The position numbers were made by a program, and so were the translations under genes. A DNA stretch of 26,834 nt from a virus: IMG/VR virus record IMGVR_UViG_3300023184_000450, positions 1 to 26,834 of that record; one strand, given 5' to 3'. Positions 1 through 26,765 of the stretch are shown piece after piece; within the stretch, counting starts at the first letter, position 1, and every line of letters begins with the position of its first letter. The notes under the pieces are model-generated. The model saw only the letters and a list, made by a program, of their open reading frames with translations, was not told where the DNA came from and ran no database searches.

Positions 1-725
1 GAAATCATATTCATAGAAGAAAATCCTCCTTCAAATCCACCAGAAGCTCCTATTGTCAGTGATCCACCAGGTATTCTAAGGCCTAAAGAATTTTCTGTTG
101 GTATCGTGGATGGCCAATAGAAAAAAGGATGTAGTGAATAATCTGCTATAGTGCCGTCTGCTATATCACTTCTAGAAAATTCTAAAAGAGGTGAATCATT
201 TACACTACTATCATTAGATATCGAAAATTTAGAAAGGAGTTCGTCGATAACACCGCTTTCTGGTGTAACGTCGCTAAGGACAAATAAATAATTTTTAGGC
301 AATATCTGGGACATCTGTATAGCAACACCGGTGCCTCCTGCATAGGTAGCTCCCGCTGGATAGGTGAAGCTATCTGTTCTAAATAGATCTGATCCTGTTC
401 TTAGATTATATCCTGTAGAATTCCATCCTGTCAGTTCTAATGTGTATATGTCACTAGTAGATGAATTTATCCAATAATCTCCTTCTTGTGCATAACCAGC
501 TGGGGTTAGCGAAGAAACAAACCATCTTGTTCCCCTTGCTCCGGATAATCCGGTATGGCCAAATGTGCCAACATCACCAATAGCTCCTCTGTCCCCTGTT
601 GGGCCTAAAGTACCCTGGCTTCCTCCATGAAGTTCTACTATTTCATCGAAGTTGTTATTCAACTTGTTTACTAGCTGACCCTGGTTGTCACCGTAATTTA
701 AGGCCTGTATATTAGTATTTGGCAT
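1..725 (-). CDS. Collagen-like fibre protein, 3' end beyond window
   Basis: An open minus-strand frame starts at ATG 723-725 and stays open to the left edge (about 241 codons), so the C-terminus is missing. The start lies 3 bases after the stop of the 1846-aa gene, which suggests co-transcription. Residues 1-33 form a short N-terminal module with the pattern LVNKLNNNFDEIV, resembling the N-terminus of the 304-aa protein at 12187-13101 and likely an attachment segment. Residues 35-67 are eleven uninterrupted Gly-X-Y triplets (for example GPTGDRGAIGDVG), a collagen-like rod. After that comes a beta-rich region beginning RWFVSS. Collagen-like repeats in phages usually sit in trimeric fibres and appendages. 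A fibre or appendage role is inferred from this and from the structural-gene neighbourhood. The exact protein is not recognised. Confidence 0.8.
   Translation of the reverse strand, partial: MPNTNIQALNYGDNQGQLVNKLNNNFDEIVELHGGSQGTLGPTGDRGAIGDVGTFGHTGLSGARGTRWFVSSLTPAGYAQEGDYWINSSTSDIYTLELTGWNSTGYNLRTGSDLFRTDSFTYPAGATYAGGTGVAIQMSQILPKNYLFVLSDVTPESGVIDELLSKFSISNDSSVNDSPLLEFSRSDIADGTIADYSLHPFFYWPSTIPTENSLGLRIPGGSLTIGASGGFEGGFSSMNMI
525..623 (-). repeat. Collagen-like Gly-X-Y repeat, 11 triplets
   Basis: Eleven consecutive Gly-X-Y triplets occupy residues 35-67 of the left-edge fibre protein. The codons differ between triplets, so this is a protein-level repeat and not a recent DNA tandem duplication. 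It probably forms a trimeric triple-helical rod. Confidence 0.8.
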
Positions 726-13326: not shown

Positions 13327-14094
13327 ATGGCTAACAGAAAAAAAAGAATTAGTGACGAAGAATTTTATGAAACGTTCCCCCCGGGATACCAATCTCCTAA
13401 TGTATCTAAATTTGATCTACAAAAATTAAAAGTAGATTTCAAATTTAAAAACGAGAGTCAAAAAAATCTAATAAATTTAATTAATGGAAATAAAATCACT
13501 ATCGTGGCTGGTCCAGCTGGAACAGGAAAAACTTATCTAGCATGCGCACAAGCTTTAAAGCTTTTAAAAACGGACCAAAGATTTAAAAAAATAATTCTAG
13601 TTAAAAGTGTGACTGTTTTAGAAGGGGAGGAAGTAGGATTTCTTAAAGGTGATCTTAAAGAAAAAATGTTGCCATTTACTATATCTTTCCTCGATAACTT
13701 CCATAAAATAATCGGGGAGGGATTAACTCAAGCGATGCTGGACCAGAACTACATTGAGGTTTTGCCGCTAGCTTTTATTAGGGGGAGATCAATAGATAAT
13801 GCAATTATAATTGTGGATGAAGCTCAAAATATAACTCAAAAAAATATGAGATCCACAATGACCAGAATAGGTACGGACACCAAGATGATTATTACAGGGG
13901 ACACCAAACAGGTAGACATGAAAAACCCAAAGCTATCATCGCTTGACTTAGTTGTTAAAATCTTCCAGAATAAGGATAATATTGGAACAATGCACTTTGG
14001 TATTGGCGATATTGTCAGGGATCCTATAGTAAAATTAATAGAGGAAACTTTTGATGAATGGGATGAGAAAAACTCAAAACAAAATAAAGAATAA
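13327..14094 (+). CDS. phoH: PhoH-like P-loop ATPase
   Basis: A 255-aa PhoH-family protein. It has Walker A GPAGTGKT at residues 62-69, Walker B IIIVDEAQN at 160-168, the PhoH-typical IEVLPLAFIRGRS just before Walker B (143-155), a sensor-like MIITGDTKQVD at 187-197, and a C-terminal FGIGDIVRDPIVKLIEE. All core motifs are present, so it should bind and hydrolyse ATP in the cytoplasm. PhoH proteins resemble the ATPase core of superfamily I helicases and are frequent in large phages, often called auxiliary metabolic genes. The true substrate is unsettled, with RNA or phosphate-stress roles proposed. The length fits phage and bacterial short PhoH forms without an N-terminal PIN domain. It lies on the plus strand inside a minus-strand virion cluster and shares a terminator palindrome with the converging gene. 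Confidence 0.95.
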   Translation: MANRKKRISDEEFYETFPPGYQSPNVSKFDLQKLKVDFKFKNESQKNLINLINGNKITIVAGPAGTGKTYLACAQALKLLKTDQRFKKIILVKSVTVLEGEEVGFLKGDLKEKMLPFTISFLDNFHKIIGEGLTQAMLDQNYIEVLPLAFIRGRSIDNAIIIVDEAQNITQKNMRSTMTRIGTDTKMIITGDTKQVDMKNPKLSSLDLVVKIFQNKDNIGTMHFGIGDIVRDPIVKLIEETFDEWDEKNSKQNKE

Positions 14095-14118
14095 GTCTTT
14101 TACGGCTTATTCTTTATT
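14083..14118. terminator. Convergent bidirectional hairpin terminator
   Basis: A perfect 13-bp inverted repeat (AATAAAGAATAAG at 14083-14095 and its complement at 14106-14118) surrounds a 10-base loop. It overlaps the 3' ends of both converging genes, phoH (TAA 14092-14094) and the 1339-aa gene (TAA on the minus strand at 14107-14109). The stem is AT-rich, so as an intrinsic terminator it is weak by classical rules. However, U-rich tracts are present in or beyond the second arm in both directions, and its placement exactly between convergent genes supports a terminator or transcript-end stabiliser. Confidence 0.65.
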
Positions 14119-17100
14119 AAACGTAGAATCCGGATTATCTGGTATAATTATAGCAGATCCAAATTGACCCTTATTAGTTCTCATTATTTCAATTTCTTGA
14201 TTTATTAGATCCCTACCTAATCTCATTGCTTTGTAATCTCTAGCAATAAAAGGAGGATTAGGATATCCATAGTCGATAGAATCTACAAAATCCGGCCTTT
14301 TATCATCCGGCCTTTTGTCTTTGTGATTTATTACTTTTATAAATCCTGCCTTAGAAACTTCGTAAACATTACCCTCTGAATCTTCTACCTGATTGTATAT
14401 AGTATAATAGCCTGGATTTACGAACGTATAAATAAAATAAGGGCTTTCTTTAATATTAAGAAATTCCTCACCCGTTTCAGGATTACTTAATACCCATTTA
14501 TTATTTGTCTTACCGTAAATATTAGAAGCATAATTATTAAAAATTACAGTGGACAGTAACGGGATTTCCATATAACTATCTGTCGAATGAACATCGCACC
14601 AAGTCCAAGCACCTGAACCTGGTCTGGATATAATATTACCTAAGTTTATACCAAGTTCTGGTTTATATTGTTTTATTATGGAAGAAAATCCTGCAGTAGC
14701 ACCAAAATATATTAGACTTCCCGTTCCCCCTGTAGTTCCGCTAGTATTTATACCTGACGAAAATAGGTTAGATGAGCTGTCTTTAGTGAATGCTATATCG
14801 CCAGTGAATAGGCCTAAATTTTCTAGATCCAAATTTTTACCTGCATTATTTGTCTTCAATAAAGCTACGTTATATCCGGTTAATCCTGGCGTGTTTATCT
14901 GATATGATGATATGAATTGATTGTTATCTAATTTATCAAAATATAAAATTTCCATCTCCCTATCAAAGACACCAGTCTTATTTGAGAATATATTCTTTAC
15001 TGTTCCCTGGTCAGTTATCTCTGCAGTATAAAGATAATTATCTCCAGTCGATCCTAGAATTATCTGGCTTCCGAAATAACTACCTGTTATACCCTGTCCA
15101 TAGTCACCTATTATAGTGTTTACGCAGTATCCAGACTTATCTTTGGCTGAATATATTTTATCTATATTTCCGTTTGCAGATGTTCCTCCTATATTTATTA
15201 CTCCCCCTGTTATCCCATTTCCTGTTGGCCCCGATATTATGTAAAAAGGATAGCTGCTATATGGAGAGGGCGATGGGTGATAAACGTTTAATCCGAACAT
15301 GCTAAAGTTACCTTTAGATTGTCCTGTAATCAAAACACCCGTTTCGTTATCTGATGATTTTATCCCGCTTATGTAAAAACCCCCGGTAGTTCCTGTAGTA
15401 TTTATGACATTATCTAGAGCAAGATTATCGCAATCCAATTTTACGTAAGACCCAAAGGTATTCTCTGATGCATTGCCTATAATACTAGGTGATGTACTTA
15501 AATCATCATTTCTATTCCAAGCATTTTTTAATGTGTCAAAAGTGACCGGGCTACTTGCTTCGTGTGTAATAGCAAGATTCACATAGTATCTACTGGAATC
15601 TATTGATGTGTAAGCAGTTCCCCCTGGATATGTTGATGTTGGTACGAAATGTCTAAATGAATTTATTTTATATGCTTTTTGTACTGAATTGTTATAATCT
15701 CCAGTAACACCAGCAAATGATGAAATGTTACCTAGATCTCTTCCTATTTTAGCTACAAATATAGCTTTAGAATTTTGCTGGGACGTATTATTATAAAGTG
15801 TATATGGATAAACTACTGGGAATCTGTCATATATGTAAATACTAACCGGTGTTCCGTTAGTGTAATTATTAACTGCATTAGTTGAACCGTATTGATAAGT
15901 AACCCCGATACTGAAAGAATCCGAATCTCGGTAAATCTGATCTATTCTATAATAGGAGATGTCAACGGAATCACTATCTACATCTAGTTCTATAGTTTGT
16001 CCTGTTAATATATTGCTAATAGTAGAATACTGGTTAACACTGGAGGAATCCGTGAAATTAAGGTAGATTCTGTTAACAGTATTATAATTTCCGCCATATC
16101 CTGCAGTTACGCCGATAAATCCTAGATCGCAATATGTTGAGGCGACAGTATCCTTATTACCAATAGAAAGATCCCATATTGCGGAAAGAAGAACTGCTCC
16201 CGTATCGGGAACCCCTATTCCTGCTATAGATCCAGAAGTTGCACCGGGTACCATAGGGTTAGTAACTCCTATCGGAGAACCTGTTGCTCCAGTAGGTCCA
16301 CTTAGATTTTCATATGCGCTCCATACATACTCGCCAACTTCTATAAACTTATCAAATGTTCCGGAAGCATATAAATAAAGACCATCTTCACTTGAACATA
16401 TACTTTGGACATCAGTACTAAATCCTCTAAAAGGAAGTATCGAATCAACCTTTCCGCTTTCCGAATAAGCGACTATAAATCCGGTTTTACCGTTATTTGC
16501 GGTATTGTATGTCGAAGAAGTACTAGAATTTAAGCTAGGACCAACACCAGATAATATAGCTGGTGTATTGTCTGCGTAATAGCCGAATTGAACCGAATAA
16601 CTTCCGGTGTATATGTCGGGTATAACACTTCCCGCGATGTAGTATTTATTTTCACCAAAGAATGTTTGAGATGTAGATGATGTTACGTTAACCATACCAA
16701 TATTACCTGATGCTCCAGAAATATACGAGATTGCTTCATCCCAAACAGGTGCTTGTATGCTTTCGGTTATCTGATCTTCTTCAAATGTTGGGATCGGCCA
16801 ATTATTCCAATATGCTTGTTTACCAGCTCTTCCGTCAGCTATATCACTTAGCTTAGTTGTCAAAAATAAATTATCTAGGTCTAATCCAGGATGCTTGTAT
16901 GCTAAAAAAGAATTATCATAAACCATCCACTCAGGATAATCCCACGTGTATTTGTTTATTTTTGGCAAAGGTGCGCCTCCCCCGGTAGCAGTATAATATG
17001 TGAAGTTCCATCCAGTAGCTCCTGCGTATTTTGATGATCCATAAACGTGGGGTAGATCGTAATCGAAATTTGAAAGAGTATTATAACCAAGAACCCATAG

Positions 17101-18126
17101 GTCATTTTCGTGTATAGTGAGATTATCTTGTGTTGTATTATGTCCTATTATCTCTATACCAAGAACACCATTGGAGGGTAAGGCGGAATTAGAATTATTA
17201 AATTGAGTGTGTGTAGTGCCATTGAAATGCCAAAGCCCGGTACCGAGTCCAAGCTCGCCATCTCCTTTGGAGTAGAAAACGTGGCCATTTTCTCTTGCCT
17301 TTATAGATGTTATTGGGCCTCCGCTAATAGAGTAATTCCAAAATTCTATGCCATCGAAATAAGAAAGTCCAATATCTGTCCCTATCCAAAGGTTACCATT
17401 TTCATCAAAATCTAAGCAATAAATATTATCTGATATTATCCCACTTGTGCTTGAGTTATAGATCTTTGCTTGTTGAATGTATTTAGATCCGTTTGTTAGT
17501 GTAAGAGTCTGTAGCTTTCCCTGCGGAACTACAAAGAGTCCTTGGGAAGTACCCATATAGTATAAATAGTCCTTTCCGCCATATCCCTTTGTTTTTATAT
17601 CATAAATATGTGGCCAGGTGTAATCATCAACGGTTTCATCCCATTTATCAATTTCTTTAAAATAATAAAATAACCTTCCTCCGGTAGCTCCTTTAATTCT
17701 AGTGTAAGCAGATGCACCTGTACCCCCTATTCCGTTAAGAGGATTAACGAAAGCTAAAATATCGTCACCGAAAGGACAGGCATAAACCAGGGAGACCTCT
17801 TGAGGCTGATCGAATGTACCTAATGCTTGGAATGTCCAATTGCCGCCCTCGTCAACATTGTTGGTATTAATCCAAAAAACAGCAACCTGATTGAAATTAC
17901 CCGCTGTTGGTCCTTGTGCAACACCAACCCAAGCTTTATCATCAGGATCTATCGAGATAGATCTAGTATCTAAGTAATACGGCGAAACTTGTGGAACTGC
18001 AGAGTTTGTGCTATTATAATATTCCCAACTTGATCCATTAAATCTTCTAACATCCTGTCCCGAAGCCCAAACATAAAATTCTTGGTCTAAATCTATCTGA
18101 TTAATATAAAGTGAGCTGCTTGGCAT
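14107..18126 (-). CDS. 1339-aa beta-propeller and PKD structural protein
   Basis: The start ATG 18124-18126 follows a 59-base leader. The N-terminal part repeats blade-like units of the two-component-regulator propeller type. Around residues 20-75 are WASGQDVRRFNGSSWEYY and SIDPDDKAWVGV; around 232-262 are IYCLDFDENGNLWIGTDIG and LSYFDG; a third unit follows with GLWHFNGTTHTQF, NSALPSNGV and NDLWVLGYN. A second blade-rich region lies in the middle (YLYASGTFDKFIEVGEY, KAIFVAKIGRDLGNI). Near residues 1199-1265 is a PKD-like domain (NKWVLSNPETGEEF, YTFVNPGYYTIYNQVEDSEG), then a tandem DKRPD repeat and a conserved-looking tail (ARDYKAMRLGRDLINQEIEIM). Such domains are typical of extracellular binding. 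In this virion cluster it is probably an adhesin-like appendage (inference). GATG and GPTGATG turns join the blades. Confidence 0.85.
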   Translation of the reverse strand: MPSSSLYINQIDLDQEFYVWASGQDVRRFNGSSWEYYNSTNSAVPQVSPYYLDTRSISIDPDDKAWVGVAQGPTAGNFNQVAVFWINTNNVDEGGNWTFQALGTFDQPQEVSLVYACPFGDDILAFVNPLNGIGGTGASAYTRIKGATGGRLFYYFKEIDKWDETVDDYTWPHIYDIKTKGYGGKDYLYYMGTSQGLFVVPQGKLQTLTLTNGSKYIQQAKIYNSSTSGIISDNIYCLDFDENGNLWIGTDIGLSYFDGIEFWNYSISGGPITSIKARENGHVFYSKGDGELGLGTGLWHFNGTTHTQFNNSNSALPSNGVLGIEIIGHNTTQDNLTIHENDLWVLGYNTLSNFDYDLPHVYGSSKYAGATGWNFTYYTATGGGAPLPKINKYTWDYPEWMVYDNSFLAYKHPGLDLDNLFLTTKLSDIADGRAGKQAYWNNWPIPTFEEDQITESIQAPVWDEAISYISGASGNIGMVNVTSSTSQTFFGENKYYIAGSVIPDIYTGSYSVQFGYYADNTPAILSGVGPSLNSSTSSTYNTANNGKTGFIVAYSESGKVDSILPFRGFSTDVQSICSSEDGLYLYASGTFDKFIEVGEYVWSAYENLSGPTGATGSPIGVTNPMVPGATSGSIAGIGVPDTGAVLLSAIWDLSIGNKDTVASTYCDLGFIGVTAGYGGNYNTVNRIYLNFTDSSSVNQYSTISNILTGQTIELDVDSDSVDISYYRIDQIYRDSDSFSIGVTYQYGSTNAVNNYTNGTPVSIYIYDRFPVVYPYTLYNNTSQQNSKAIFVAKIGRDLGNISSFAGVTGDYNNSVQKAYKINSFRHFVPTSTYPGGTAYTSIDSSRYYVNLAITHEASSPVTFDTLKNAWNRNDDLSTSPSIIGNASENTFGSYVKLDCDNLALDNVINTTGTTGGFYISGIKSSDNETGVLITGQSKGNFSMFGLNVYHPSPSPYSSYPFYIISGPTGNGITGGVINIGGTSANGNIDKIYSAKDKSGYCVNTIIGDYGQGITGSYFGSQIILGSTGDNYLYTAEITDQGTVKNIFSNKTGVFDREMEILYFDKLDNNQFISSYQINTPGLTGYNVALLKTNNAGKNLDLENLGLFTGDIAFTKDSSSNLFSSGINTSGTTGGTGSLIYFGATAGFSSIIKQYKPELGINLGNIISRPGSGAWTWCDVHSTDSYMEIPLLSTVIFNNYASNIYGKTNNKWVLSNPETGEEFLNIKESPYFIYTFVNPGYYTIYNQVEDSEGNVYEVSKAGFIKVINHKDKRPDDKRPDFVDSIDYGYPNPPFIARDYKAMRLGRDLINQEIEIMRTNKGQFGSAIIIPDNPDSTFNKE
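14290..14319 (-). repeat. 15-bp tandem duplication encoding DKRPD twice
   Basis: Two adjacent 15-base units differ at one base and encode DKRPDDKRPD just after the PKD-like domain of the 1339-aa protein. The near-identity suggests a recent in-frame duplication in a linker. Confidence 0.8.
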
Positions 18127-19932: not shown

Positions 19933-22900
19933 TCATGGATAAGTGCCGTAGGTAAAACCTGCAATAAGCAATCCGCTACCCCCTATAATCGAAGGTGGAG
20001 CAGAGCTGGCAGAAACAGAAACGTTTGAATTATTTATTATTACATTTATAGGTGGTGTATCTAAGGGAAGATTACCGCTTTCATTTGGGATAGGTCTATA
20101 GTAAAAATTCTGTATATTTGGATCAGAAGAGTTATTTAATTGATCTGCAAGTTCACCAATAGTTAATGACGATGCTCCTGGCTGTATTGTCATTCCGATA
20201 GGATACGGATAAAATTCATTACCTGTGCTGATTTTTATAAAATCCCCAGGGGTTATATTATGTAATTCATATCCACCGAGCCAGTCATTATTAAACTCAT
20301 AATCAAACCACGTGTGTGCATAACCTTCGTCCCATGCATTATCAGTAAATATGTTCCAGTTTAATTTTTTAGTCCCCCAGTATTTTAAATTTGCATTAGG
20401 TAAATCCGGGCTAGATTCAGACCAATACACATAAGATTCGATTGGACTAACTCCACCACTCAATCCAGTAGAACTAGAAATTACAGAAAGAGATCCAGTA
20501 GCTTCATAGGTAAGTTGAACCCCATTTTGATCAGCACCCAATTCATCAGGTGCGCTGATAACTAACGTAACATTAGGGGAGTTTCCTGGATCTGTACATG
20601 ATGCAAAATAATCTGGATATGTTCTAAGCGAGTTAATGGACGATGTGATAGCATTCACACTCCTATATAAAGAATCTCCAGATTCGCTAGATCCTACCAA
20701 TCTTCCGCCTACATATACTGAAATAGAACCTGCTCCTGTAGCATATTGATTTGGGTATATTAAAGAATATACTGATAATCTAGTAGGTCCAGCTTGATTA
20801 ATTGTATAACTCCATGAACTTTGGATTATTATCGGTATTTTAAAAGTATTATTAGATCCGTCGGGTACTATTATTGTCCATTTTCCAACAAGCTGAGGTA
20901 TAGTTCCAAATAATGTTACTTCATCACCTGTTTGTAGACCATGATTAGCAGAACAAATAACGGTGGCAAAACTATATTGGCCAGGGATTATCTGATATGA
21001 AGTTATTTCGGTTATGGTTATATTAGATTGGGTAAGAGAAATATATCCAGTTGCTCCGATAGGATCCGCATTAACTTTAACATAAGCATCCTGTCCTTCT
21101 TCTGATTTATTGCCATAAGTTGCAAAATCTAAAATCTCACTAGGTATTGTTTTTTCTAAAACCTCTATAGATTCACCTTCAGCTGGATATTCCCAGATTG
21201 AGTTATAATCTTCCCAACCTTTAAAAACATTTCTCCATGTATAATCTTCAACTTCTCTGTATCTTGTCCAAGCATCTATATCAACGATTTTAGGGTTAAC
21301 CGTTATAGCTCCATTTTTTATTGCTACTGTTTTAGCGTTAAAAGCGTCATAGACGTTGCACGTTACTTGATAAACCCCAGTGTATGGTACAAAGTGGGCT
21401 AAGGTATAAAAGTCCAGTATAGAGCCTCTAAATTGAAAATTATAAGGGCTTCCTTGCTGTGTCGCTGGCTTGTTCACTATCCATTCGATATCAACCATAT
21501 TAGAAAAATCAACATTTTTCCAATTCAATAAAGAATAGTTTTGTATGCTTGAAAATAGTGATGCCTCATCGGTATTTATAACAGTAGAGTTATCAAGGAA
21601 AATTGTATAAATACCCGTCGAATAGCTAACCGCAGTTACTGTACCGAACACGTTTGTTGGCTTATATAAAACCCTACTTCCGACTTTAAATACAGGGGTC
21701 AAAAGAGAAGACCAATTTATATTCAATTCATCCCATGACCATCTATCCAAAATAAGTTCCAAAACTATTGGCATTCCTATAGGGGTCTTATAGGTCAATC
21801 CTGTTATCGGATCAATATAAGCAGGCGGATCATATTTCCCATCACCAAGTTGTAATAATTCTCCATTCTGCTTCAGATCATAAAAGTTACTAATAGCGTT
21901 TAGCAATGAATCATTCTGAGTTGGTGTATAATACTGTTGATTTGAAAGCGGATCTATTGTATTTCCAAGATCCGATAATTCGGATGGAGCTACATTTATA
22001 ACTCCATTTAAAAGAGATTTATTATTGGATGAATAGTAGTAAACAGGAGATGTTTGTTGTGGGCTTACATTCCAAATTAAACCGGGTCCTCCCGAGGTAA
22101 CACCATTATTAGTTAAACCGATAGGGTCAACTTGAGATAGTAGTGGATCTGTGGTTATATAAAAATCAAATCCTGCTGTAGAAAGACTAAATTCATAGGT
22201 CTTTCCTGCGTTAATATTCAATACAGGATTTGGTCCTGATAAGCCAGTTGCTCCGGTAAGTCCAGTTATGTATATGGCACTTCCTGTACCACCCAATACA
22301 CTTGTCTGAACATTAAAATAATTATAATATGAAGAAGGGGTTTGTATGGATGTACTTAGGGGTCTAATTGAAAAGTTCCTAAGATCCTCAATAAATCCAA
22401 AATCTGGTGTAACTTTAATATCAGTATAAAAACCAGAATCAATATCAGGTCTTTGCATAATATCAGTCCATGCTTTGGTATTATAAACATTAAAGTAAAT
22501 TCCCTCCCCTGTTATATCTATAATTCTAGCATTTAATGGTAAATAATCTCTCTTAAGTCTTTCCTTAAGGGCAAACATTTTTATAAGGACCTCTTCCTGA
22601 GTGAATTGAAAAGAATCAACTACTTCTGGATATCCATAGTCCGAATCATATCCTGTCGTTTTGTTTATATCGTAATAAAGTCCAAACAAAGACGTTTTTT
22701 TATAGGTTCTACTAGGCAGTATTGTATTGTCTGAAGAAACGTCTAACACATATTGTCCATCTGAATTCGGCCCGTATGTTTGAACTAATTTATATTTTCC
22801 TGAATTAGGATTATCTAAAACATCTCCAATCTGATAGCCCTGGCTATATCCTTTAGACTGCTGTTGTTTTATTGCATCAAGAAATCCTTGATTTTGCTGT

Positions 22901-24126
22901 AACGGTGATTCTAATCGTGCGCTCTTATATTGGAGATTTAACCAATATTCCTTTATTCTTAAATCCTGATATCCAAAAAATCTGATTGCATTTATCAAAC
23001 CCTTATAACTACCTAGATATGGGAAAATCTCCTCTCCAGCTATTAATAATTCTTTTCTTTTGTCGTTTATCTCTATGTAATTAGGTAAAGGCTCCTTCGG
23101 ATCATGATCTCTAAGTATAATCGAATCTTCAGGGTAAAAAGCTCTTCCCATGTTTTGTAACATGACGCTAAACCTTTCGTCCTCACCGACAATTTCTCCA
23201 TAGAAATCCATCTCAATAATTTTTTCGGGAGTTCCTGTACTAATATCTTCTATGATTAATTTCCTCTCGTAGATATTAGAAGCTAAATCTGTTGCATTTA
23301 TTGCAACGTTTATAGATAAAGCCTCGGAATTTACTACTGATGTTGAGACATATCCGCTTCCTGTGAGTGTATCTGCAGAATTTGAGTCTACACTATAAAC
23401 TATATTGGGATAACTGATTATCAAAGGTTGGCCGTCTCCGCCTTCCATTTGATTCTCTATTTTATAAGTGAATATAATCTCAGATACATCAGTCTCACCA
23501 TAACTATCATTATACCATCTAGATCTCCACTTAGCAGCGGTAGCTCCAGTAGCCCCTGTATGCGGAAGTCCATATTCTAAAGTACCAGAATTATTAAGTG
23601 TCTGAACAATGAATATTTGCTGGTTCTCGTAAAGTCCGGAAGAAACTGGATCGAAATATATGTTACCCTTAAAATAACCGCCTGGCCTATTTGTGTAAGC
23701 TGTAGTGAAATATATTTGATTATTTAGACTTATTAATCTTTGTCCGTTTATAGCATCAAGTTCAAAGCTAACCCTTAGGTAAGTGGAGTTATTAGTTATA
23801 GAGGATATCTTTGCTTCAAATTCGCCTTGACCTACGATTCTACCTTTAATGTATACGTCTGCACCATTAAGTATGTAGTTATTTATTTCTAATCCCCACT
23901 CAAGAATGTTAAATCCATTTAGATCTTCTATATTCAGATCAATATAACCAGGATCAACATCAAGTTGACTAACAGAAACCTGCCCAGATGATGAAGATGA
24001 AGATGATGTTACATAGGTAAAATTATGATCGAGATTACTCGGTCCGGTTGCACCTATATAATCGAAGTTTAATGGACTCCCGGTTTTATCGTAAAAATTA
24101 AGCCTCCTATAGAAAAATTCTGACAT
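19933..24126 (-). CDS. 1397-aa multidomain baseplate protein, tail-protein-I/gp7-like core
   Basis: Starts at ATG 24124-24126, 3 bases after the 176-aa gene's stop. An N-terminal beta region (with a seven-Ser run at 41-47) leads to a core at about 320-400 (ERFSVMLQNMGRAFYPEDS, GEEIFPYLGSYKGLINAIRF, FGYQDLRIKEYW) and 505-545. This is the pattern of tail protein I-type baseplate proteins. Downstream modules are a cupredoxin-like fold without metal ligands (633-713), an SH3/Tudor-like barrel (812-857, FKVGSRVLYK...VFGTVTAV), a PKD/Ig-like domain (877-946, GVYQVTCNVYDAFNAKTVAI) and a hairpin unit with NHGLQTGDEVTLFG (1061-1098). The position after gp25 and gp6 equals T4 gp7 or P2 I, so a wedge protein linking the inner baseplate to peripheral appendages is likely. 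It is longer than T4 gp7 (about 1030 aa), apparently by added domains. It ends with TGA, unlike the TAA of its neighbours. Confidence 0.85.
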   Translation of the reverse strand: MSEFFYRRLNFYDKTGSPLNFDYIGATGPSNLDHNFTYVTSSSSSSSGQVSVSQLDVDPGYIDLNIEDLNGFNILEWGLEINNYILNGADVYIKGRIVGQGEFEAKISSITNNSTYLRVSFELDAINGQRLISLNNQIYFTTAYTNRPGGYFKGNIYFDPVSSGLYENQQIFIVQTLNNSGTLEYGLPHTGATGATAAKWRSRWYNDSYGETDVSEIIFTYKIENQMEGGDGQPLIISYPNIVYSVDSNSADTLTGSGYVSTSVVNSEALSINVAINATDLASNIYERKLIIEDISTGTPEKIIEMDFYGEIVGEDERFSVMLQNMGRAFYPEDSIILRDHDPKEPLPNYIEINDKRKELLIAGEEIFPYLGSYKGLINAIRFFGYQDLRIKEYWLNLQYKSARLESPLQQNQGFLDAIKQQQSKGYSQGYQIGDVLDNPNSGKYKLVQTYGPNSDGQYVLDVSSDNTILPSRTYKKTSLFGLYYDINKTTGYDSDYGYPEVVDSFQFTQEEVLIKMFALKERLKRDYLPLNARIIDITGEGIYFNVYNTKAWTDIMQRPDIDSGFYTDIKVTPDFGFIEDLRNFSIRPLSTSIQTPSSYYNYFNVQTSVLGGTGSAIYITGLTGATGLSGPNPVLNINAGKTYEFSLSTAGFDFYITTDPLLSQVDPIGLTNNGVTSGGPGLIWNVSPQQTSPVYYYSSNNKSLLNGVINVAPSELSDLGNTIDPLSNQQYYTPTQNDSLLNAISNFYDLKQNGELLQLGDGKYDPPAYIDPITGLTYKTPIGMPIVLELILDRWSWDELNINWSSLLTPVFKVGSRVLYKPTNVFGTVTAVSYSTGIYTIFLDNSTVINTDEASLFSSIQNYSLLNWKNVDFSNMVDIEWIVNKPATQQGSPYNFQFRGSILDFYTLAHFVPYTGVYQVTCNVYDAFNAKTVAIKNGAITVNPKIVDIDAWTRYREVEDYTWRNVFKGWEDYNSIWEYPAEGESIEVLEKTIPSEILDFATYGNKSEEGQDAYVKVNADPIGATGYISLTQSNITITEITSYQIIPGQYSFATVICSANHGLQTGDEVTLFGTIPQLVGKWTIIVPDGSNNTFKIPIIIQSSWSYTINQAGPTRLSVYSLIYPNQYATGAGSISVYVGGRLVGSSESGDSLYRSVNAITSSINSLRTYPDYFASCTDPGNSPNVTLVISAPDELGADQNGVQLTYEATGSLSVISSSTGLSGGVSPIESYVYWSESSPDLPNANLKYWGTKKLNWNIFTDNAWDEGYAHTWFDYEFNNDWLGGYELHNITPGDFIKISTGNEFYPYPIGMTIQPGASSLTIGELADQLNNSSDPNIQNFYYRPIPNESGNLPLDTPPINVIINNSNVSVSASSAPPSIIGGSGLLIAGFTYGTYP
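23986..24006 (-). repeat. TCA/TCT trinucleotide run encoding seven serines
   Basis: Seven consecutive Ser codons (TCA and TCT alternating) form residues 41-47 of the 1397-aa protein. It is a short microsatellite that could change length in frame. Confidence 0.8.
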
Positions 24127-24129
24127 ATT

Positions 24130-24660
24130 TTAAAAAACTCTTTTATTATTTTTTTTAACGGTGTAATTGACAAAATTCTTAATTTGCTTAGTTGTTTCAA
24201 CTAGTCCAAAAACTACTCTGTTAAAATATCCAAGTATCCCTTCTTTAATAGGATCTCTATAAAGAACATTAGACAAAGATCTTTTTAATAATTGATCTTT
24301 ATAATCAAATCCATTATAAAGATTGTCATTAAAGCTATCCCGTATATCATAAATGTTCTGAGTGGGATCAAATTCATAATATCTCCTTTCTACTGGAATT
24401 TTAGGCATTGATTTCATTATAGACTTATATTGAATTCCATCTGAGCACGGGGAATATCTATATTCACCTAGACCACTTGATAATATTCTTCTGTATCCAG
24501 AACAACCTATATTATAGGCTCTATCAGAAGCAAGCTCTGCAGTAGGATAAAAATCCTTTGGATCATAAAAAGTAGTGTTATCTGTTCTCGGTTTTATCCC
24601 AGATACCGTATAATTTACTCCTTTTTTTAGATCAGGGAAAAATGGTGAATAATTATCCAT
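24130..24660 (-). CDS. 176-aa baseplate-cluster protein with GCSGY...PC motif
   Basis: The start codon overlaps the gp6-like gene's stop (TAATG), so translation is probably coupled. The protein is basic at its C-terminus (VKKNNKRVF) and has no membrane segment. Residues 38-72 contain YPTAELASDRAYNIGCSGYR followed by SPC at 70-72. This recalls a small module seen in phage and bacterial proteins, with the pattern A-x-x-x-A-x-x-I/L-G-C-S-G-x-H...PC, where Cys and His probably bind a metal. Here the His position is Tyr-Arg. The position between the gp6-like and gp7/I-like genes suggests a small wedge component comparable in place to T4 gp53, but I see no sequence proof of that. Function otherwise unknown. 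Confidence 0.8.
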   Translation of the reverse strand: MDNYSPFFPDLKKGVNYTVSGIKPRTDNTTFYDPKDFYPTAELASDRAYNIGCSGYRRILSSGLGEYRYSPCSDGIQYKSIMKSMPKIPVERRYYEFDPTQNIYDIRDSFNDNLYNGFDYKDQLLKRSLSNVLYRDPIKEGILGYFNRVVFGLVETTKQIKNFVNYTVKKNNKRVF

Positions 24661-26384
24661 TAGCTATTTTTTATAAGTTGTGATTTCATATCGGCATTTA
24701 AAGACATGTTAAAATTAACAGGTATTATTTTGGTAATGCTTATATTAAGAGCTCCGGGCTTACCTTGTATTATACCTTGCTGATAATTTGTACCATTCCT
24801 ATCCGTCCATCCACCTCTTAAAACAATCAATTCACCTCTTCCGATTACCACATCGCCAAATTCGTTCAGGCCTATTTGTTGTTGTAACTGGGCATCAGAA
24901 ACATTGGTTAAACCCCTCATGAGCGTTTGATTTTCTTCATTTGCTTGACCTACAAAATAAAAAGAAACAGAGTCAACGCCTTCTACGGATTCAACAATAG
25001 CAATCATATCTGATTTTGGAATAAAGTCTCTTCTTTTTAAATTGAGCATATATTCCGAGATTTTCTTCCTTATCGTTTGTCTTATTGTTTCTGGATCATA
25101 CCCTTCGAACATTGTGATAACAACATTTGCTATGAATCTTTTTATCTGTGGCTCAACTATTCTAACAACCGTTGTTGCGATCATAGATCCGGAATCCTCA
25201 ATAAGATTTATCACTTTATTTTTTTGATTAGTTGTAAGTAAAAAATCAGATACCGGAATATCGAAGTAATCTTCATTAGAAGAAATGTTTAGGGTTATGT
25301 CAGGAACCAAGAAAATATAAATTACGTTATCATCATCAAGATAATCATCATCGAAAGTAGAAAAAGCTTGAATCTGAGAAAATATACCCAGCTTGTTAAG
25401 AAAAATCTCATAATTCTGCGCATTAGCAAAAACAAAAGACCTGCTGGTCTTTGGAGCGACTAATCTTATAAGATTTACTGTCTCCGGATTTGTACCAAAC
25501 GATGGATCTACAGAATTAAAAGCATCCATATAATTATTTAAGTCTACCTCATTTCCAAATAGATCTGTCCCGGTAGTAACGAATTTGTAGGTTAGCGGTT
25601 TTTCTCTAGTGGAAATAGCGTTTCCTGATCCACCAGAGGTCTGAAGATATTCTATTCTTATTCTCGATCCCCTTTGAGGAACCATACCAAAATTAGAATT
25701 ACCAAAATAAACGTCCAATCCTTCCTGGATACCTGTTCTAACAATAAATCCCTTTCCGTTTAAAGGTATATCATATAGGGAATCGTACCTTCTCCATTTT
25801 TCCTCATTAACATAAACATCAACATAGAATTGATCAAGATAAGCTCCAGAAGAAGACGGGAGATTAAAACTTTGCAAAGCGTTTCCCGTTCCGGTTACTA
25901 CGGAACTAATAAAATCTCCCTGTGCTACTTTAACTCTAAGAGGGCTTGGACTACCGCTAAGCTGAATAGTTACCCTTGAAGATCCAAAAATTAAAGAATA
26001 TAATTTTCCATTTTCCTGACATCTTATCTGTGCGTGATTATTTATTATAACGGCACTTCCGCCAATATCTGATTGCCTTCTATTCCAGGATAAAGTTACT
26101 TCACCCTGAGCAGTGCTTGCTCTTCCTGGGTCATATCCAGCAATTCTAGCCAAACTTCTAACAGAATAATCCCTAGTTGCTTGCTCGATATTTAATTCTG
26201 TTATCGAATCCTCTATGAAATAAAGGATCATCTGGGAAAGGTTTTGTAAAACGAATAAAATCTGTCCCCATGCAGATGCTACAGTAAACAGATTAGTTGT
26301 TTGGTTATAAGTGTCCTGCAAGAAGGAAAACGTGTCGTTTAATAGACCGTTAATAAGGACATTATTCTTCTTAAAAATATTCAT
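24660..26384 (-). CDS. Baseplate wedge protein gp6 / baseplate J-like
   Basis: A 574-aa protein with the expected gp6/J landmarks in order: an N-terminal helical region; SVRSLARIAGYDPGR (74-88); the beta section with DVYFGNSNFGMVPQRGSRI (224-242) and a GGSGNA turn; NPETVNLIRLVAPKTSRSF (299-317), the hallmark of J-type proteins; and C-terminal RDFIPKSDMIAIVESVEGVD (452-471). In contractile tails this protein forms the dimeric iris ring around the hub and transmits sheath contraction. It is slightly shorter than T4 gp6 (about 660 aa). An acidic loop, FDDDYLDDDN (344-353), is conspicuous. The start ATG 26382-26384 is 9 bases after the gp25-like gene's stop and preceded by AGAGAA. It is co-transcribed with gp25 upstream and overlaps the next gene by one base. 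Confidence 0.9.
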   Translation of the reverse strand: MNIFKKNNVLINGLLNDTFSFLQDTYNQTTNLFTVASAWGQILFVLQNLSQMILYFIEDSITELNIEQATRDYSVRSLARIAGYDPGRASTAQGEVTLSWNRRQSDIGGSAVIINNHAQIRCQENGKLYSLIFGSSRVTIQLSGSPSPLRVKVAQGDFISSVVTGTGNALQSFNLPSSSGAYLDQFYVDVYVNEEKWRRYDSLYDIPLNGKGFIVRTGIQEGLDVYFGNSNFGMVPQRGSRIRIEYLQTSGGSGNAISTREKPLTYKFVTTGTDLFGNEVDLNNYMDAFNSVDPSFGTNPETVNLIRLVAPKTSRSFVFANAQNYEIFLNKLGIFSQIQAFSTFDDDYLDDDNVIYIFLVPDITLNISSNEDYFDIPVSDFLLTTNQKNKVINLIEDSGSMIATTVVRIVEPQIKRFIANVVITMFEGYDPETIRQTIRKKISEYMLNLKRRDFIPKSDMIAIVESVEGVDSVSFYFVGQANEENQTLMRGLTNVSDAQLQQQIGLNEFGDVVIGRGELIVLRGGWTDRNGTNYQQGIIQGKPGALNISITKIIPVNFNMSLNADMKSQLIKNS

Positions 26385-26393
26385 TTCTCTATA

Positions 26394-26765
26394 TTAGGTT
26401 ATTCTTAGTGTAACTAGAGGACTTAATCCTCCATTTACCGGTATTTTAAAATCTATTGTTGCTATATCTCTTTCTGTTCCGACATAAAATTTAAGATCAT
26501 AAGAGCCTCCGAGTTTTCCAAAAAGAGGTATATACGTTTTTAAAAATAGACTCAATTCGTTTCTTATACTAGATTCAGATAAATTTAAACTAAATATAAG
26601 CTCCTCTAGATTAAGTCCGAATTTGGTATCACCTAATACTTCACCCTTGTTTGTGAGAAGCATCATTTTTAATTGACCTATGCAAATCTCCACCGGGTCG
26701 GTTGTTTCGATCTGGTATGGGTTGTAGCTTGGGTCTAATGGATCCCTGTTATAAATCTCTCTCAT
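26394..26765 (-). CDS. Baseplate wedge protein gp25-like (W-like)
   Basis: A 123-aa protein of normal gp25 size (T4 gp25 is about 132 aa). Residues 29-55 hold the family core: IGQLKMMLLTNKGEVLGDTK, then FGLNLEE, followed by the helix ESSIRNELSLFLKTYIPLFG and terminal strands TIDFKIPVNGG. gp25, P2 W and the type VI secretion protein TssE share this fold, which docks the first sheath ring onto the baseplate. The usual GER-x-x-x-PxFG segment is degenerate here (GEVLGDTKFG). It is immediately followed by the gp6-like gene, the standard partner. The start ATG 26763-26765 sits 14 bases after an ATATATA element. Confidence 0.9.
   Translation of the reverse strand: MREIYNRDPLDPSYNPYQIETTDPVEICIGQLKMMLLTNKGEVLGDTKFGLNLEELIFSLNLSESSIRNELSLFLKTYIPLFGKLGGSYDLKFYVGTERDIATIDFKIPVNGGLSPLVTLRIT

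Follow-up and report, generated by a model that had tools for sequence, protein, structure and literature searches.

The locus considered here raises the question of whether a domain folded like the blue-copper proteins, lying inside a phage structural protein, can have lost its metal site and been retained as a building element, and where such a domain came from. The stretch of DNA analysed, referred to below as the window, comprises positions 1 to 26,834 (26,834 nt) of the IMG/VR virus record IMGVR_UViG_3300023184_000450. A first-pass annotation, made from the sequence alone, had placed a cupredoxin-like domain with replaced metal ligands at 21988-22230 on the minus strand; this interval does correspond to residues 633-713 of a 1397-aa ORF, and the motifs quoted for it are present.

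Host protein and gene context

The host phage is of the jumbo type. A PHROG search with the full-length 1397-aa protein gave phrog_28177 as the sole match at E <= 0.1 (E-value 4.6e-23) and revealed no counterpart of the N-terminal part of the gp9-like protein (PHROG 677); neither the Pfam search with this protein nor the PDB sequence search with the profile of its whole family, core included, produced a match. Since a gp6-like gene and a gene with weak similarity to gp25 stand ahead of it, and its homologues in the Chryseobacterium phage MA9V-2 and the 462-kb uncultured phage LR756500 are placed after genes of like size or similarity, the protein is probably a baseplate wedge protein in a gp7-like position, as judged from gene order. 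The set of relatives comprised 80 loci with a homologous core, containing 58 distinct domain sequences (59 including that of the window). The lengths of the relatives vary from about 1340 to 1841 aa (loci L008, L012, L158, L164 and L362-L364); some of them carry C-terminal extensions, and L362-L364 have an N-terminal extension of approximately 330 aa.

Table 1. Coordinates of the features discussed; residue counts refer to the 59 distinct domain sequences.
Feature	Position in the window	Strand	Basis
1397-aa structural protein, carrier of the domain	19933..24126	minus	ORF; position after gp6-like and gp25-like genes
Metal-free cupredoxin-like domain, residues ~600-716 (117 residues), predicted	21979..22329	minus	AlphaFold2, Foldseek, HMM, HHalign
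Leu706, Met ligand position	22009..22011	minus	alignment; Leu 39, Met 13, Ile 7 of 59
Lys703, second His ligand position	22018..22020	minus	alignment; Pro/Lys/Thr in 50/59, His in 0/59
Ser700, Cys ligand position	22027..22029	minus	ungapped YYYQCxxHxxMxG / YYYSSNNKSLLNG; Ser/Thr in 44/59
Phe653, first copper ligand position (His of HPF)	22168..22170	minus	alignment; Tyr/Phe in 53/59
Conserved core of the 1397-aa protein, residues 300-590, directly before the inserted domain	22357..23229	minus	common to domain-less jumbo phages (e.g., LR756500, MA9V-2, pT24, MaF61)
gp6/baseplate J-like wedge protein	24660..26384	minus	phrog_219, E 3.7e-34
gp25-like baseplate wedge protein, weak match	26394..26765	minus	phrog_120, E 0.0028; Pfam GPW_gp25, E 0.15, below cut-off

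Several other features of the window were observed. A 1339-aa structural protein (14107-18126, minus strand) contains a PKD-like stretch and shows a weak match to Reg_prop, the two-component regulator propeller repeats (E-value 0.003, below the cut-off), and it may hold a beta-propeller. A gene recognised by sequence motifs as that of a PhoH-like ATPase (13327-14094, plus strand) is embedded in the tail gene cluster in opposite orientation, and a 241-aa fragment (3-725, minus strand) includes a collagen-like Gly-x-x stretch. Scattered TGxTG words occur above chance in several structural proteins, with different codons each time.

Sequence homology and predicted fold of the domain

A profile of ligand-bearing domains was built from 76 non-redundant sequences, drawn from 120 viral stretches that contain the preset motif YYYQCxxHxxM. 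This profile matched residues 620-713 of the 1397-aa protein with a domain E-value of 8.3e-6 and a protein score of 26.1 bits; the best of 1000 shuffled decoys reached 9.9 bits with the same profile, which rules out a chance resemblance. Relatives of the protein scored 14-26 bits; L009, which diverges most within the initial set, was unmatched. An HHalign comparison of the window-family profile with the ligand-bearing one (probability 96%, E-value 3e-9, 93 columns) paired the HPF and YYYQCxxHxxM loops with FDF and YYYSSNNKSLL of the window. Since the first profile was built from a preset motif, PHROG profiles, made by others, were also used, and the domain was matched by phrog_9158 (E-value 1.7e-4) and phrog_677 ("baseplate wedge tail fiber protein connector", E-value 2.8e-4), the latter over profile positions 324-410 of 412, i.e., its C-terminal domain. 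All three comparisons uphold the initial suggestion that the layout is shared with structural proteins of marine phages. PDB sequence searches with the window domain and with its family profile gave no useful match, and the tie of the domain to known cupredoxins is, at the level of sequence, indirect, running via the ligand-bearing phage domains; the latter match plastocyanins in the PDB at an E-value of 1e-6, and 3 of 6 tested (from viral contigs) passed the cut-off of the Pfam family Copper-bind (PF00127, plastocyanin/azurin). The window domain has the same fold as that family, but the window protein, with none of the four copper ligands, is not matched by it. No second copy of the domain was found within the window.

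AlphaFold2 modelling with an 89-row alignment, which includes ligand-bearing relatives, predicted a structure of eight strands with a pLDDT of 87.1 and a pTM score of 0.83. All 50 PDB matches listed by Foldseek for this model possess the cupredoxin fold (probability 0.95-1.00), among them rusticyanin, plastocyanin, pseudoazurin, amicyanin, nitrite reductase, laccase and factor VIII; moderate TM-scores (0.34-0.57 on the query) were obtained against the PDB cupredoxins. Against a library of viral structure models, cyanophage tail proteins matched best, with a TM-score of 0.78 and an rmsd of 2.8 for the S-H34 baseplate wedge tail fiber connector. When the alignment was limited to the window sequence and eleven ligand-less relatives, the model was weak (pLDDT 52, pTM 0.54) and was judged too poor for use alone; the 50 PDB matches listed for it were all cupredoxin-fold proteins or oxidases containing the fold (rusticyanin, E-value 4e-5). 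The models indicate that residues ~600-716 form a cupredoxin-type β-sandwich, as the first-pass annotation had expected of an AlphaFold check, and not some other architecture; the interval given there is too short, since the domain starts near residue 600 and the first two strands lie outside.

Copper-ligand positions

The ligand register was counted back from the invariant Gly708, which places Cys at -8, His at -5 and Met at -2. The type-1 copper set defined by the Pfam PF00127 criterion (His, Cys, His and usually Met) is absent from the window domain, where Phe653, Ser700, Lys703 and Leu706 stand instead. Replacement of all four ligands had been proposed earlier, correctly for Phe653, Ser700 and Leu706; the residue named for the second His, an Asn, resulted from a slip in register. 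Replacement ligands from nearby residues, the outcome set against that proposal from the start, are ruled out, as Cys, His and Met are entirely missing from the 117-residue domain, and no conserved Cys or His was found in the domains of the relatives. At most one of the four ligands is kept in any of the 59 distinct sequences; where there is one (13 of 59), it is Met. Loci L378 and L381 retain both the Pro after the first ligand position and the Met (YPL/FPL ... MNG), which looks like a vestige; L344-L346 and L379-L380 have a Cys in a shortened loop (YYYC), in an ambiguous register.

Insertion site and selection

The domain is present at the same site in all 80 loci with a homologous core, and a ligand-bearing version in the same host protein was found in none of these relatives. 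The stretches compared of more distant core homologues, belonging to LR756500, the Lak phages, MA9V-2, the Tenacibaculum phage pT24 and the Flavobacterium phage MaF61, contain no such domain, and therefore it was most likely gained after the core, in one branch. No homologous core was found in the other domain-bearing contigs compared outside the window clade. Comparison with the two nearest of the relatives used puts the dN/dS ratio of the domain at about 0.07, similar to that found elsewhere in the protein, the core excepted; more distant relatives give 0.09-0.23, and all of these are rough values with dS near saturation. The domain is under purifying selection, and gene decay was rejected on dN/dS.

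The domain family in marine phages

Marine phages have homologous domains in their tail fibres, in connectors and in further tail proteins. The family that includes the window domain is frequent among the tail proteins of cyanophages, one of them the "baseplate wedge tail fiber connector", and its copper ligands are often complete there. The gp9-like connector of PHROG 677, also a baseplate protein, has a C-terminal domain homologous to that of the window, as the profile match and the S-H34 model indicate; it differs in that the examples examined have the complete His-Cys-His-Met set and in that the domain is placed at the C-terminus of another host protein. Plastocyanin-type domains with the complete set abound in large phage proteins, among them tail fibres and baseplate connectors, with examples in viral loci L024-L143 and L192-L306 and in phages S-H34, P-SSM2 and Bellamy; no report of any test of copper binding by them was found. 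The domain of the P-SSM2 tail fiber-like protein (L146) showed a weak match, below the cut-off, to the Pfam family PF25489 (At5g54830-like, E-value 4e-4), a domain of plant proteins with possibly the same cupredoxin fold.

A search with the ligand-blind pattern NNGA..G..YY revealed 34 domains with all four ligands and, outside the protein family of the window, 16 clear ones with two or fewer. A tree was built without the ligand columns, leaving out rows that were truncated, too divergent or in a wrong register; it is unrooted and short (108 columns). Parsimony requires at least six changes of ligand state on it (bootstrap 6-6), or four if only starred branches are counted. The window family forms one clade (support 98/94). 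Seven "GFPF...YYQASN" domains, found in Synechococcus phages such as RN05-S, S-B05, RB11-B and S-B43, adjoin the ligand-bearing Bellamy domain (97/95), which implies one local state change; they have also lost His, Cys and His, the first His being replaced with Phe as in the window, but they retain Met and Pro and represent a separate change of state. The tree thus suggests that ligand loss is recurrent, with ligand-less versions arising several times in phages, and the original description of a single metal-free case was too narrow. The direction is read as loss rather than gain because complete sites are typical of the superfamily, a reading that depends on the root of the unrooted tree. Metal-free cupredoxin folds are also found in cells, where ephrins and early nodulin-like phytocyanins use the fold without copper for binding or as a structure; these differ from the phage domains in being eukaryotic extracellular proteins.

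Possible role of the domain

The evidence makes it likely that residues 600-716 are a metal-free cupredoxin domain of marine-phage copper-type descent that acts as a structural or docking module in a baseplate protein. Its ancestor would have been a copper-type domain of marine phage tail or baseplate proteins, which entered a baseplate protein of a jumbo phage in a single insertion, behind the conserved core. In the window clade, the type-1 copper site would then have disappeared, the first His giving way to an aromatic residue, Cys to Ser/Thr and the second His to Pro/Lys/Thr, with Leu, Ile or Met remaining at the Met position. With the site gone, the domain most likely neither binds copper nor takes part in electron transfer. 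It may provide a stiff beta-sandwich that keeps adjoining subunits of the baseplate or fibre in place, a function conceivable also for its homologue at the C-terminus of the cyanophage tail-fibre connector. Docking or scaffolding appears to be the best reading of the role because the domain is constrained and apparently metal-free, occupies a fixed site in a baseplate protein and is homologous to the terminal domain of the fibre connector. The metal-free structural reuse of a redox fold proposed by the first-pass annotation is supported, in that it fits the ligand absence, the purifying selection and the fixed insertion site; the lack of metal and the role themselves are deduced from these.

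The main rival, though rather unlikely, is a surface-exposed module for adhesion or glycan binding, in which the fold would be reused for contact with the host or a polysaccharide and not for baseplate cohesion. Tail fibres of cyanophages, and other tail proteins, do contain related domains, and accessory beta-sandwich domains of phage tails are often adhesive; the window domain, however, lies mid-protein at a fixed place in every relative, and its dN/dS, similar to that of the protein outside the core, gives no sign of the rapid divergence usual for receptor-binding parts. That a metal or another ion is still bound, at a different site or through the oxygen ligands of Ser, Asp or Tyr, is improbable: conserved Asp, Asn, Ser and Tyr residues are present near the loops, but no soft ligand is left, and aromatic or aliphatic residues occupy the first-His and Met positions. 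Least tenable, and largely refuted, is an ordinary Ig-like beta-sandwich with a coincidental likeness to cupredoxins, for which weak Ig and filamin matches of some ligand-bearing relatives, all below the cut-off, could be cited; both models retrieved only proteins containing the cupredoxin fold among their 50 listed PDB matches, and the alignment of the sequence profiles extends through both ligand loops.

A search of open-access literature yielded no paper that connects cupredoxins with the baseplates or tail fibres of phages. The fold and the phage domain family are known; here they are seen with the copper site lost and in a new host protein. The finding also assigns a fold to one portion of a family of proteins lacking functional annotation. 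A tentative possibility is that phage tails harbour a large unrecognised blue-copper-like family, whose complete sites would bind copper in the virion, and that the site has been lost repeatedly elsewhere, leaving here a purely structural domain. In the preferred reading, a redox fold has become a virion part, and since the complete site and its absence both exist within one phage domain family, the use of copper by phage tails is directly testable.
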